DNA of 29,074 nt from Chlamydiota bacterium (GTDB lineage Bacteria > Auribacterota > Tritonobacteria > UBA1439). The notes beneath the pieces are model-generated. The model saw only the letters and a list, made by a program, of their open reading frames with translations. It was not told the DNA's origin and did not search any database. Within the stretch, counting starts at the first letter, position 1; each line of letters opens with the position of its first letter. The stretch is taken from the NCBI GenBank assembly GCA_012729785.1, contig JAAYCL010000017.1:1-29074 (forward strand), written 5' to 3'. Below, piece by piece: positions 9,357 to 29,074 of the stretch. Position numbers and translations under genes: made by a program.

Positions 9357-11999
9357 CTACTTCAGCGCGAACGGCGCAACGGCCAGCAGGAACGCGTCGC
9401 CCGGGCCCGTGATCGGCTGCTCGGGAGCGAAGAAGCCCACCATCACCGAGCAGTTCCCCCTCGGCGCGCCCGGCGGTACCGTGAGCGACATGAAGGGATA
9501 GGTGAACCCCGCGGGCAGCCCGTGTACATTCGTCGCCAACGGTTGAATCCGCGGCGACAGCGTTATCGCGTCCAGCATCGACCCATCGGGCAGATTGACC
9601 ACCGCGTAGGCGTTGAACGTCCTCGCCACCGCCCTGTTCAGTCTGAATGTCGCCGCGAACGGACTCCCCGGGCGATAGGAGGTGCCGTTCAACAGCACCT
9701 GCGCCCGAGGGAGAGGGGTCGGCGTGGGCGTCGGCGACAGCGCTGCCTGCGCCAGATTGCACAGCCCCCGGTCCCAGTACGTTGAACCGTCGTGGGCGAT
9801 GTAGAGGCCCACGGTATCACCGTGTATCGCCGGGAAGTAGACCCGCTTCGTTTGGCCCCCGTCGTACGTCACCGTGACGTAGTCGCCCGCCTGGACGGCG
9901 ATCCCCTCCTGGTCCCGTCCCACCAGCACCCCCGCCGGCTGCGGCGCGTAGGCGGCCTTGTCCGTGAAGATGTTGCTGTTGTCGTACACGTACCCGAGCG
10001 GCTTCCCGTAGACGTCGTCCGCCAGGCCGAAGTAGAAGTTCCATCCCGCGCCGACGCCCGAACGCGTCGAGGCGATGCGCAGGTTCGTGATATCCCCGAT
10101 CTCCAGCGGGGCGGTGCACGGCGTCGGGGTGCGCGTGGGCGTGGGTGTGATCGTCGGCGTGGGGGTCCTCGTCGGCGTGCGGGTCGGGGTGCGCGTGGGT
10201 GTCCTCGTCGGCGTGGGGGTGATCGTCGGCGTCTCCGTCGGTGTGGGCGTGATAGTCGGTGTGGGGGTGATCGTCGGCGTGGGCGTGATCGTCGGCGTGG
10301 ATGTAATCGTGGGGGTGGGGGTGATCGTGGGCGTCGGCGTGGGCATCGATTCCAGGCAATAGAGAAGATCGCCGTTGGGATGCGAACCGTAGATCCTTCC
10401 GCCCGAGTCTATCGCGTTCGCGCCGTGATTGATGGCCGTCCAGGAATGGAGACGGTAGCTCCACGAGAGACTCCCGTTGGCGTTGAGGCAGTGGTTGCCG
10501 CAATAGATCTTCCCGTTGGAATCGATCGCGGGGGCATAGGCGATGCCTTGATACGACCAGGTAAAGGTCCCGTCGGAGGCAAAGCTGCTGAGATACCTAC
10601 CATTCACATTACTCAAGGTGACGTACACCTTCCCGTCAGACCCTATCGCGGGCGAGGTGTAGTCGTTTAATTCCATTGGATACGTCCAGGCAATGGTTCC
10701 GTTCGAATTGAAGCAGTAGAAGAAATAGTCGGCGCCCCGGTATATCCTCCCATCCGAGCCGATCGAAGGTTTGCAGTTTGCGTAATCGCCTAGTGCATAA
10801 GACCAGACGCGGTCTCCTTCTTTATCGATGCAGAGAAAGTTGCTGTATAAGTTGACGTATACCCTGCCGTCGGAATCCACTGCGGGATAGGAGTCTATTG
10901 ACGAATACTTACGATACGACCACACCATGCCGCCGTTCGGAGTCATGCTGTAGAGCATATTGCCATCGCCGACATACACCGTGCCGTCAGACCCTATTGC
11001 CGGCGTACTGTAATAGATATTATACATTCTATAACTCCAGTCGAGCCCCCCGTTTGACCTGATGCTGTAGAAGGTGTTATCTTGCGAGGTGATATATATG
11101 CTCCCGTCGAAGCCGATCGCAGGCGAGGATGTTATTTCATGGTCGGTTCTGTAACTCCACGCGATATCGCCGTTGGGGGTAAAACTGTAGAAGCGCAGGT
11201 CGTCCGAGCCGACGTACACCCGTCCATCCGTACCTATCGCGGGAGAAGAATATACGGAATCTAGAAAACGATAACTCCACGCCAGGGTCGGCCTGTACGG
11301 GCCCGCGTACTCGCTCCGTCCGGTATGCTGGGCATCGTGCTGGAACATCGGCCAGGGCGCCCGTGGGGCGGCCTGCGCCAGGTCGCACAGGTCGCGGTCC
11401 CAGTACGTCGAACCGTCGAATCCGATATACAGCGTACTCTCCCCGCTCAGGGCGGGAAAGTAGATCTTTCTCGTCCGGCCCCCGTCGTACGTCACCGTGA
11501 CGTAATCGCCCGCCTGGACGGCGATATCCTCGGAGTCGCGCCCCACCCAGACCCCCGTCGCCTGCGGCTGTTCATACCCGGCTCCGTCCTCGAAAATATT
11601 GCCGTTGTCATTCACGGCGCCAAGGGGGTTCTCATAGATAGCGTGCGCAAGGCCGAAGTAGAAGAACCACCCTCCATCCATGCTCGACCGCGTCGTCGCG
11701 ATCTGCAACCCCTCCACGTCCCCTATCTCGAGCGCCGGCCGGCACAGTTCGTGGATCCCCGCCCCGAGGTTCTCATCGGTGTCCGAAGAAGCCTGTCCGG
11801 CTTCGGCCGCTTCGCCGGAATCGAATGCGGCGGCATCCCCATGCCCCGTTTCTAGGGCCGCGCCGTCGGCGGGTGCGGCGACGTCGTACCCGTACACGGA
11901 GTCCGTTCCCTCCGCGCGCTCCGCCTGTGCGGCGCCCTCGGCCGGAGAATGAAACGGCACAAGACACAGCACGCAAAGCGAAAGCAGTGTCCTCTTCAT
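9357..11999 (-). CDS. Secreted WSY/PQQ-type beta-propeller protein with Thr/Pro linker and two copies of an unrecognised domain
   Basis: An 880-residue exported protein. In order: signal peptide (1-22); low-complexity acidic/Ala segment (about 24-85); domain copy 1 (89-210); propeller (about 214-552); Thr/Pro linker (553-628); domain copy 2 (631-752); short linker; C-terminal beta-rich domain (766-880). The propeller starts with [13 protein letters not shown] and shows eight WSY/WTY repeats at 241, 281, 321, 360, 399, 438, 481 and 513, each followed by PAIGSDGxVYVG-like strands. This is typical of PQQ-repeat (BamB-like) seven- or eight-blade propellers. No enzyme residues are recognised. The two domain copies share [15 protein letters not shown] and DGSTYWDR. 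It probably acts at the surface or in the matrix, in binding rather than catalysis. AGGAGGG precedes the ATG. The propeller part is AT-richer than its neighbours. Confidence 0.88.
10116..10343 (-). repeat. Short-period repeat encoding a Thr/Pro linker
   Basis: A degenerate 6- to 12-base repeat (GTCGGCGTGGGC-like on the plus strand) encodes [10 protein letters not shown] and RTPTRTPT runs over about 76 residues. Such linkers are commonly extended and O-glycosylated in secreted proteins; glycosylation is inference here. Confidence 0.9.
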
Positions 12000-25943: not shown

Positions 25944-26265
25944 TTAGAACATACACACAACTTTCTGCAAGGCAACAAGTTGTTTGTATGTTAGTACTTG
26001 CACTGGGAGATCGGAGTAGCAAGATTGTCTCCGAGCGAGCATCTCCGTCCCGTTCCAGCCGCCCCCGGGGTTCTCCTCGCAGTGATTGCATCTTCCCGCG
26101 CATTCTTCCAGGATGACGCGCGAGAGCGCGCACCTGACCACTCAAATCCCTGATCACTGCGCGTTGCAGCGCATCCTCGGCGATCAGCATCTTCGTCAAC
26201 TCAGGGAGCTCCGCATCGGATATCCGTCTCGACTCTTTATCCGTCACCTCCCATTCCCGGACCAT
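25944..26265 (-). pseudogene. Small Cys-motif gene with a probable frameshift
   Basis: Starts at 26265, overlapping the histidine kinase 3' end by 29 bases. Residues 1-44 (DAELPELTKMLIAEDALQRAVIRDL) read as a helical protein in one frame. From about 26141 the coding signal moves to the +1 frame, which reads VVRCALSRVILEECAGRCNHCEENPGG, a C-x3-C-x2-C motif with strong GC third positions, ending at 25944. The first frame beyond 26141 becomes Arg-rich and unstructured. A single-base insertion (or a real frameshift event) near 26141 would join them into about 108 residues. Alternatively the second frame is a separate small gene starting at GTG 26141. I do not recognise the family. Confidence 0.45.
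25948..25992. repeat. Imperfect 16-bp inverted repeat in an AT-rich pocket
   Basis: AACATACACACAACTT (25948-25963 region) and AAGTTGTTTGTATGTT (25977-25992) are reverse complements with a single mismatch, separated by 13 bases. The arms are AT-rich in a GC-rich region. They overlap the end of the Cys-motif frame. On the minus strand the hairpin lies between that gene and the transporter promoter, so it may act in termination or protein binding. No T-run follows. Confidence 0.55.
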
Positions 26266-27052
26266 CTCGCTTCCCGTCTTTCACGGCGACTTTCTGCGCG
26301 GGGAATCTGCCGTACGCCTCATTGAGCACGCCTGTGGAAAGGGGGAGGCGCGGGTCCTCGACGAGGGGCAGATCGAGGGTAATAGTTGCCCCGCGGCCGT
26401 TTGAGGACCCCACGCGAAGGCTGCCGCCGTGCTCCTCGATGATCCTCCGCGAGATGCTTAACCCCAGCCCTGTCCCCTCCCCCGTGGGTTTCGTCGTAAA
26501 GAACGGCTCGAATATCCTTTTCACGTGTTCATCACGGATGCCGCGCCCGCTGTCGCGGAACTCGATCACCGCCTTGCCCCCCTCCCTCCTCCCGTGCACC
26601 TCCAGCACCCGCTTTTTCACCTTCAGCAGCTCGTAGAAGGCATTGTGCAGGATGTTGAATACCACCTGCTGCACCTGGAACTCGTCGACCAGCGCCTCCA
26701 TGCACTCCGGCGGGAACGTTAACCGCACCTTGATCGCGGCGGATTCGAAGAGACGGGTTTTGATCTCCACCGGTTTGGTAATCACCCTCCGCAGGTCCGT
26801 CCTCTGCCGTTCCATCCTCCGGCTGCGTGCGAATTCAAGGACCCCCTTCGCCATGCCGCAGCATCGTTCGCAGGACATCAGCATTTCATCCGCGTATTTC
26901 CACGATTCCGCTTGCGCCTTCTTGAGCATGGTCGCATACCCCAGCAGGACCGTGAGCTGGTTATTGAGCTCGTGCATGATCTCCGACGTCGTCTCCCCTA
27001 TGCACGCCAAACGCTCGATCCGCGCGATCCGACTCCTCTCTACTGGATACAT
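26237..27052 (-). CDS. Soluble histidine kinase without a sensor domain
   Basis: A 271-residue HisKA/HATPase kinase. The start at 27052 has AAGGAA upstream; the longer frame to 27157 adds a His/Arg-rich stretch that looks non-coding. Only about 18 residues precede the H-box, ETTSEIMHELNNQLTVLLGYATML (His27 is the phosphate acceptor). The ATPase domain is complete: N-box QQVVFNILHNAFYELL (Asn137), FRDSGRGI (G1), FEPFFTTKPTGEGTGLGLS (F and G2 boxes) and GRGATITLDLPL. No membrane helix, PAS or GAF domain is present. A run of Cys (CERCC, 61-65) lies in the DHp region and a C-terminal tail of 35 residues follows. No response regulator gene is adjacent. It likely takes input from a partner protein, possibly one of the nearby genes. 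Confidence 0.92.
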   Translation of the reverse strand: MYPVERSRIARIERLACIGETTSEIMHELNNQLTVLLGYATMLKKAQAESWKYADEMLMSCERCCGMAKGVLEFARSRRMERQRTDLRRVITKPVEIKTRLFESAAIKVRLTFPPECMEALVDEFQVQQVVFNILHNAFYELLKVKKRVLEVHGRREGGKAVIEFRDSGRGIRDEHVKRIFEPFFTTKPTGEGTGLGLSISRRIIEEHGGSLRVGSSNGRGATITLDLPLVEDPRLPLSTGVLNEAYGRFPAQKVAVKDGKRDGPGMGGDG

Positions 27053-27232
27053 CCGTTCTTTCCTTTTATGGCGATGGAGCGCCGCGCACCCCTTCGGCGC
27101 CCCATCATGCCCATGATCCATGCGATGTACGACGGGCGGTTCGTTCCTTTGCCGCACCTCTTCTTATCGCATCATGCTGTGCGCTTCACGATCGACACTA
27201 TGCATGCGTCTTCCCATCAGTCCTCGTCCCGC

Positions 27233-29074
27233 TCACCAGCCGAACTCCTGTGCCCCTATCGGCCCCCAATGGCCAAGCATCCCTCCACCGTTATCGCGAT
27301 AATATCCGTCGGCCAGCCTCGCACCCGACGATCCGAAGCTCACCCGTAGGAGTTCTTCCGGTGCGGCACATGCCGCGCTCGTCAATGCGCTGTCGTAATA
27401 CGTCGCACCGTTCTTCCCGATATAGAGCGTCACGGCCTCCATCGTGTCGAGCGCCGGGAGGTATACCTTCATCTCCTCCCCTGCTACGTTCGTGATAACG
27501 AGATAATCCCCAGCCTCGATCGTGATTGCCGCCTCCGCCGGCTCGATGAACAGTGCCGCGGCGGTTGACGGATATTCCCCTCCCGCCACGAATTCGTTGT
27601 CGCCGTCGTTGACCGATCCCATGATCTCCCCTGACGGATTCGTCGCCGTTCCGAGATAATATACGAATCCGTTCCCCACGGCGGATCTCGGCTCTTCGAT
27701 CCTCATCCCGAAAACGGTCCCCGTCTCCAGCGGCCGACTCTCCGCTGTCGGGGTGGGCGTGATCGTCGGAGTAGCCGTCGGCTCGGGCGTAGCCGTCTCC
27801 GTCGCCGTTGGTGTCGGCGTCTCCGTCGGCGTCTCAGTCTGGGTCGGCGTTCCCGTCGGGGTCGCCGTCTCGGTCGCAGTGGGGACCGGCGTTTCCGTCG
27901 CCGTCGGCGCGGGTGTCTCCGTCGGCGTGGCCGTCGGGATCTCCGTAGGCGTCTCCGTCGGCACCGGCGTCGGGGTTTCGGTCGGCGTCTCCGTGGGAAC
28001 CGGCGTCTCCGTAGGCGTGATCGTTGGCACCGGCGTCGGGATCTCGGTCGGCGTCTCAGTCGGCGTCTCAGTCGGCGTCTCCGTAGGCGTCGGTTCCGGC
28101 GTCCACTCCGTCTTTACCTCATACGCCACCGGATTCTCGTTCGCGAAGTGTATCCACCCCACTCCCTCCGCCCATGCGTAGCCCGAGAAGTTCCCTTCCC
28201 CATCCACCACCACACGGCTGTCCGTCGAATGGAAATTCACCCATCCCGCCAGCTCGCACCATCCGTACCCGGACAAGTTCCCCGAACCGTCGTTGTTCAC
28301 CCCCCAGTCCGTCTCGTCCGTGTTCGCGTACGGAGGAGTCTCGCTCGACGCCAGCTGGATCCATCCCGTGTTCTCCTGCCAGACGTATCCGTATACCCCC
28401 GTATCCGTAACCGTCGCGCCGCCGTCCGACGGCCTCATGTTGCACCAACCGGCGTGCTCACTCCACGCGTATTTATGATTAGGGTCTATATTCCCGATAC
28501 CAGGCACCGATGTGGCGGTCGCCGTCGGTGTCGGTGTCGGCGTCGGCTGTCCTTCCTCATCTCCTACGGTCGCAACCGGTTCTGGTTTTACATATGGCCG
28601 TATCTGAAGATTATCTATATAGAACGCGGAATCTCTTGCCCCAACTCCTATATAACCCGCTGCAATCTGGTCGCCTGATTCGCTCCCCTTGTAATCTCCC
28701 TCCACGTACATTTCTCCCGTTGCTTTCCATCCCCCTTCTATTTCGCCATGATTCCACCACCGCATCATTGTTTCTTTTATCGTTTCGAAACCAGGCGTAG
28801 GGGCGTCCAACAAAAGAAAATTCGGGGCAATGCACATATGCAGGTTATTATCGCCGTATGTCAACGGATATACCGCTTTAAAATTCATCACTTCATTATC
28901 CATCGAGCTGCCATGGATAACGCCGCTCCAACCGTTGCCGATATAAGTTACAACCTTCAGTAGATCATATTTGACTTCCGCCGTGTCGAATTGCGCCATG
29001 CTATACCACAGAATCGAATTGAGAAACGGACCGCCCGAATCTATTCTCACTCTTTGATTTTCTGAATCATAGGT
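27233..29074 (-). CDS. Secreted Thr/Pro-linker protein with GYxWxExxGW repeats, cut by window edge
   Basis: The frame is open to the window end (613 codons seen; the N-terminus and signal peptide lie beyond 29074). Using Met/Val at 29050 as residue 1: residues 1-155 look like a concanavalin/LamG-type beta domain ending [19 protein letters not shown]; four repeats follow at 195 ([13 protein letters not shown]), 221 ([13 protein letters not shown]), 261 ([13 protein letters not shown]) and 290 ([13 protein letters not shown]), a unit often seen in bacterial surface proteins; a Thr/Pro/Glu linker spans 318-438; and residues 440-560 are a third copy of the domain found twice in the 9357-11999 protein, sharing [10 protein letters not shown] and [12 protein letters not shown]. 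The C-terminus ends in GAQEFGW. The 28.5-29.07 kb part is markedly AT-richer. Function is probably surface attachment or matrix. Confidence 0.88.
27737..28099 (-). repeat. Thr/Pro/Glu linker repeat
   Basis: A degenerate 12-base-period repeat encodes about 120 residues of [12 protein letters not shown]-type sequence. It is separate in sequence from, but of the same kind as, the linker at 10116-10343. Confidence 0.9.

Follow-up and report, generated by a model that had tools for sequence, protein, structure and literature searches.

An undescribed, probably accessory domain of secreted proteins in Candidatus Auribacterota and a conserved C-terminal tail found beside it

Introduction

Two proteins encoded on a single contig of an uncultured bacterium share a domain of about 120 residues, which raises the question of whether this domain belongs to a known family, how widely it is spread and what it does for the proteins that carry it. 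The DNA analyzed here, referred to as the window, is the entire contig C17 (29,074 nucleotides) of a genome of 2.59 Mb in 45 contigs. A literature search returned nothing relevant on the domain, or on the tail described below, in this phylum. The family is of interest because it lacks annotation and marks proteins that an uncultured phylum secretes, and because its fold is predicted with confidence and ready for expression.

Domain copies and host proteins

The features of the window are listed in Table 1. A sequence-only reading had proposed that the domain occurs three times with conserved spacing, and both points are borne out by alignment. The full-length local alignments score 421 (A-B), 182 (A-C) and 221 (B-C), far above the maxima of 63, 51 and 56 obtained from 1000 shuffles (z 30-70), with identities of 66% between copies A and B and 37% between copies A and C. 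Thr/Pro linkers, which had been described beside all copies, are found beside copies B and C and are missing from copy A, where no [ST]P pair occurs within 40 residues on either side.

Table 1. Features of the window (first eleven rows) and tail loci elsewhere
Feature	Position	Strand	Evidence
Protein p1, 880 aa	9357..11999	(-)	ORF; Pfam PQQ_2 E 1.2e-14; signal peptide
C-terminal beta-rich module of p1	9360..9707	(-)	sequence
Domain copy B	9741..10118	(-)	profile E 1.4e-51
Thr/Pro linker ahead of copy B	10116..10343	(-)	sequence
PQQ/BamB-type beta-propeller, between copies A and B	10515..11288, approximate	(-)	PF13360 E 1.2e-14, above cut-off
Domain copy A, N-terminal	11364..11744	(-)	profile E 2.5e-50; AlphaFold2 pLDDT 97.4
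Protein p2, truncated by contig end	27233..29074	(-)	5' part on contig C6; 127-nt exact overlap
C-terminal tail, behind copy C	27236..27358	(-)	tail models E 4.1e-20 and 2.2e-12, this tail being a member of both models
Domain copy C, without cysteine pair	27359..27736	(-)	profile E 9.1e-43
Thr/Pro linker of p2	27770..28123	(-)	sequence
GYAWxExxGWI repeats of p2	28121..28489	(-)	sequence
Further tail loci	L182, L185, L187-L193, L196, L198-L202		

Protein p1 consists, in order, of a signal peptide, copy A, the propeller, a Thr/Pro linker, copy B and the C-terminal beta-rich module. The propeller is also matched by PF13570 with an E-value of 3e-27, which is under that model's own cut-off. By eye, and without a profile, the C-terminal regions of three other loci (L014, L111 and L113) look like the C-terminal module of p1. 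The right end of the window and contig C6 share exactly 127 nt, so that p2 can be read onward into C6. Read across both contigs, p2 comprises a start, a signal peptide, DUF2341 (E 2e-25), GYAWxExxGW repeats, a linker, the domain and the tail. An exact overlap of 127 nt also joins contigs C4 and C44, and the assembly was probably broken at these ends by the repeats. Both p2-type proteins of this genome are followed by a histidine kinase gene, at 26237-27157 (-) for p2 and downstream of the tail in L078. The two kinases are related and both start with MYPVE, which suggests a duplicated gene pair.

Conservation and predicted fold

Among 40 copies of the domain, conservation is strongest at Y113, Y105, Y94, P96, W25, D115, D45, D79, T112, G110 and G78. 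Both glycines are present in 40/40 copies, Y113 in 39/40, and D115, D45, D79 and T112 in 38/40. In the AlphaFold2 model, D45, N48, G78-D79, G110, T112 and D115 are mostly located in loops. Of two cysteines, one just ahead of the domain and the other at Cys119, 21 copies have both and 15 have neither, with two odd copies (Fisher p 9e-9, a guide only, since related copies are not independent). Because these cysteines are present or absent together, a disulfide joining the two ends of the domain is suggested, which would fit an exported protein.

The view that the domain does not belong to a known family has held up. Pfam and NCBIfam gave no convincing match above curated cut-offs over the domain in the 26 copies scanned; matches to SH3_2 and MazE/AbrB are short pieces in one to three members that cover no coherent part of it. 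The profile has no significant match among solved structures in the PDB, the best being a designed protein (E 0.045). The coherent beta fold that had been anticipated is present in the AlphaFold2 model of copy A, which is all-beta with a pLDDT of 97.4 and a pTM of 0.90. In Foldseek searches with this model, nothing in the PDB or among viral structure models reached an E-value of 0.001.

Distribution

In its own genome, copy A as query gives 13 matches, which correspond to about 11 copies in eight proteins. The partial matches at the end of C4 and the start of C44 are counted as one split copy in view of the contig overlap, and a 23-residue fragment inside an 89-codon frame (C11:4423-4491) is left out; some copies are interrupted by contig ends. 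A family profile (A1) built from 26 copies detects the domain in 8 of the 44 genomes of the phylum to which this genome belongs, Candidatus Auribacterota. In a sample of 384 genomes, the domain is matched outside the phylum only in G136 (two matches) and G115 (a weak, partial match, E 7.9e-5); in the phylum of G136, which is distinct from Candidatus Auribacterota, the domain is present in three of six genomes. The expectation that many secreted proteins of a single lineage would carry the domain is supported. In addition, a scan of named genomes, run on two short peptide patterns that may miss distant copies, yielded five loci, including one in Candidatus Erginobacter occultus (Candidatus Auribacterota) and one (L072) in a metagenome-assembled genome labelled Proteobacteria. 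In L072, a segment that looks dockerin-like by eye follows the domain at the C-terminus. Spread via plasmids or phages was considered and rejected, as tblastn gave no match.

Modular context and role of the domain

The domain is combined with a PQQ-type propeller (p1), DUF2341 (p2), subtilase and PPC domains, and further with NHL, SBBP, FG-GAP, laminin-G and right-handed beta-helix modules; no glycoside hydrolase is present among the partners found here. Many host proteins carry export signals. A Thr/Pro linker lies ahead of 31 and behind 24 of 45 copies; in the same proteins, the background rate for 40-residue stretches is 14%. Tandem copies are found in L014, L018, L130 and L210, and N-terminal placement is seen for copy A and in L118 (residues 206-333 of 1564). 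L017 is almost bare, with a signal peptide, the domain and a short C-terminus, and L211 and L212 consist of an N-terminal membrane helix and the domain, with nothing else. The domain proteins of family f9 (L120-L129 and L131-L133) end in FG-GAP-type repeats, with last residues that are mostly YFGxxxDxPVTR-like.

It had been suggested that the domain could itself be a C-terminal anchor, and this is not supported. The tandem, N-terminal, near-bare and membrane-helix copies point to a self-contained module and argue against a C-terminal sorting signal. A C-terminal domain recognized by a secretion system for sorting or anchoring, of the kind used in type IX secretion, would agree with the location of most copies in the second half of the protein, often shortly ahead of a C-terminal element (the YGW tail, FG-GAP-type repeats or the dockerin-like segment of L072). 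The N-terminal, tandem and membrane-tethered copies speak against it, as does genome G006, which has 39 tails but only one domain, and this explanation is considered improbable. SprA_N, sought as a marker of type IX secretion for the domain as well as the tail, had no match in nine genomes, where a control search likewise matched nowhere.

With moderate confidence, the domain is interpreted as a mobile secreted accessory module, most likely for binding or display, that holds its partners at the cell surface or against an extracellular target. A beta-sandwich-like domain would be exported together with its host protein and fold on its own, and in many copies it would probably be closed by the end-to-end disulfide. 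Thr/Pro linkers would tie it to catalytic or propeller modules. Two conserved loops, VxDNxNxFxD and DGSTYxD, could mediate binding, perhaps with the help of Ca2+. Carbohydrate binding, which had also been proposed from sequence, is possible.

Given the diversity of the partners, none of them a glycoside hydrolase, the role of the domain may instead be purely structural, and the loop conservation may serve folding. The domain would then be an Ig-like or FN3-like spacer without a ligand, making long surface proteins stiffer and longer, in line with the diverse partners, the tandem copies and the long linkers. However, loop residues as strongly conserved as these are rare in spacers, and the bare, membrane-anchored single copies have nothing to space, which makes a spacer rather unlikely.

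A conserved tail ending in YGW

The sequence-only reading overlooked a separate conserved C-terminal tail immediately behind copy C. This tail of about 40 residues ends in YGW and lies directly behind the domain in p2 and in other domain proteins. Its occurrence beside the domain is unexpected and undescribed, and as a finding it may be more important than the domain. In four related genomes, a model built from seven tails has 12 matches in G000, 8 in G001, 10 in G003 and 30 in G006, and a model built from 27 tails has 20, 14, 18 and 39, respectively. The 27-tail model also has one match each in G004 (L080) and G026 (L140), both of which run on into a full-length domain, and none in the other 38 genomes of the phylum. 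In the loci examined, the stop follows within two residues in 50 of 61 distinct tails and within 15 in 56. Stop readthrough or frameshifting after the tail was rejected, as TGA (27), TAA (15) and TAG (14) are all used, no downstream frame continues the domain and no homologous sequence lies behind the stop.

Tail hosts include subtilase, endonuclease/phosphatase family, LTD, metallo-beta-lactamase, GDSL and cysteine-peptidase-like proteins. By a crude test, signal peptides are present in 18 of the 32 complete frames with a tail and in 107 of the 645 other frames. Beside the domain, the tail is predicted to be disordered (pLDDT 37-47, from only six sequences), and packing of the tail onto the domain was rejected on this basis. 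Of the candidate partners, secretin was rejected because it is present in both tail-bearing and tail-less genomes, and exosortase because it does not track the tail: none was detected in G000 and G003, both rich in tails. Exosortase-type tags moreover have a transmembrane helix and a basic end at the C-terminus, and the tails contain no hydrophobic helix.

The tail is similar to the opening ~37 residues of full-length domains in L195, L140, L207 and L208, and it resembles about one third, at the start, of a malectin-like or AGA-YXIM galactose-binding domain (PF21254). The tail proteins stop at YGW, and the remainder is missing. The full-length relatives, whose chain runs on, match or resemble galactose-binding-like domains; one of those in L195 matches PF21254 past the tail-like stretch with an E-value of 1.9e-5, just below the cut-off. 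The tail domain also has a full-length relative at the C-terminal end of a protein weakly matching PMT_2 glycosyltransferase (L194:4621-6927, (+)). In G001, a putative zf-HC2 anti-sigma factor (L195:4292-5074, (-)) has a membrane helix followed by the tail at its C-terminus, and the adjoining gene encodes a protein whose modules are full-length versions of the tail domain. A similar short membrane protein with the tail is encoded in G003, which belongs to another genus (L196:6947-7576, (+)).

Judged from these sequences, the YGW tail looks like an undescribed C-terminal tag, and the most natural guess for its role is that of a signal for sorting or docking. It is tentatively proposed, as a possibility of less than even probability, that the tail arose from the first strands of a galactose-binding-like domain and serves dozens of proteins per genome as a new signal for sorting or docking, that a membrane anti-sigma factor carrying it could sense receptor occupancy, and that the 120-residue domain is a module for surface display, often located immediately ahead of the tail. 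If the tail is a sorting signal, it would reveal an unknown protein-display route within one branch of the PVC group. The proteins of that route could then be listed from sequence.

Comparison with known systems

Like C-terminal sorting tags such as MYXO-CTERM (PMC11980579), the YGW tail is a lineage-specific C-terminal sequence shared by dozens of proteins that are diverse and for the most part secreted. Unlike MYXO-CTERM, it lacks an invariant cysteine, a transmembrane helix and an Arg-rich end, and no processing enzyme was identified for it.

For the domain, the best rows in VIA-align, which covers only the fold families on the VIA list, are PLAT/C2-like sandwiches, as found in lipoxygenase N-terminal and clostridial phospholipase C-terminal domains. 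The top rows reach Z 4.7 with an rmsd of 3.9 over 106 residues (3vf1), and 1ca1 gives Z 4.1 with an rmsd of 3.4 over 92 residues. Identity in these rows is about 7-14%, the Foldseek match is weak (E 0.48) and there is no sequence match to the domain. As Z-values below 5 are in the range of unrelated sandwiches, kinship to PLAT/C2-like domains is too weak to claim.

Carbohydrate-binding and other accessory modules are mobile, secreted and linker-flanked, and they occur at either protein end and in tandem. The domain differs from carbohydrate-binding modules (CBMs) in that no CBM family is matched, the best being CBM32 at E 0.1 in one member, and in that its partners are not glycoside hydrolases. 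It resembles CBM-type accessory modules in being mobile, secreted, flanked by Thr/Pro linkers, placed at either end and repeated in tandem. The domain family is real and undescribed, and it is of a familiar kind, namely a secreted accessory module.
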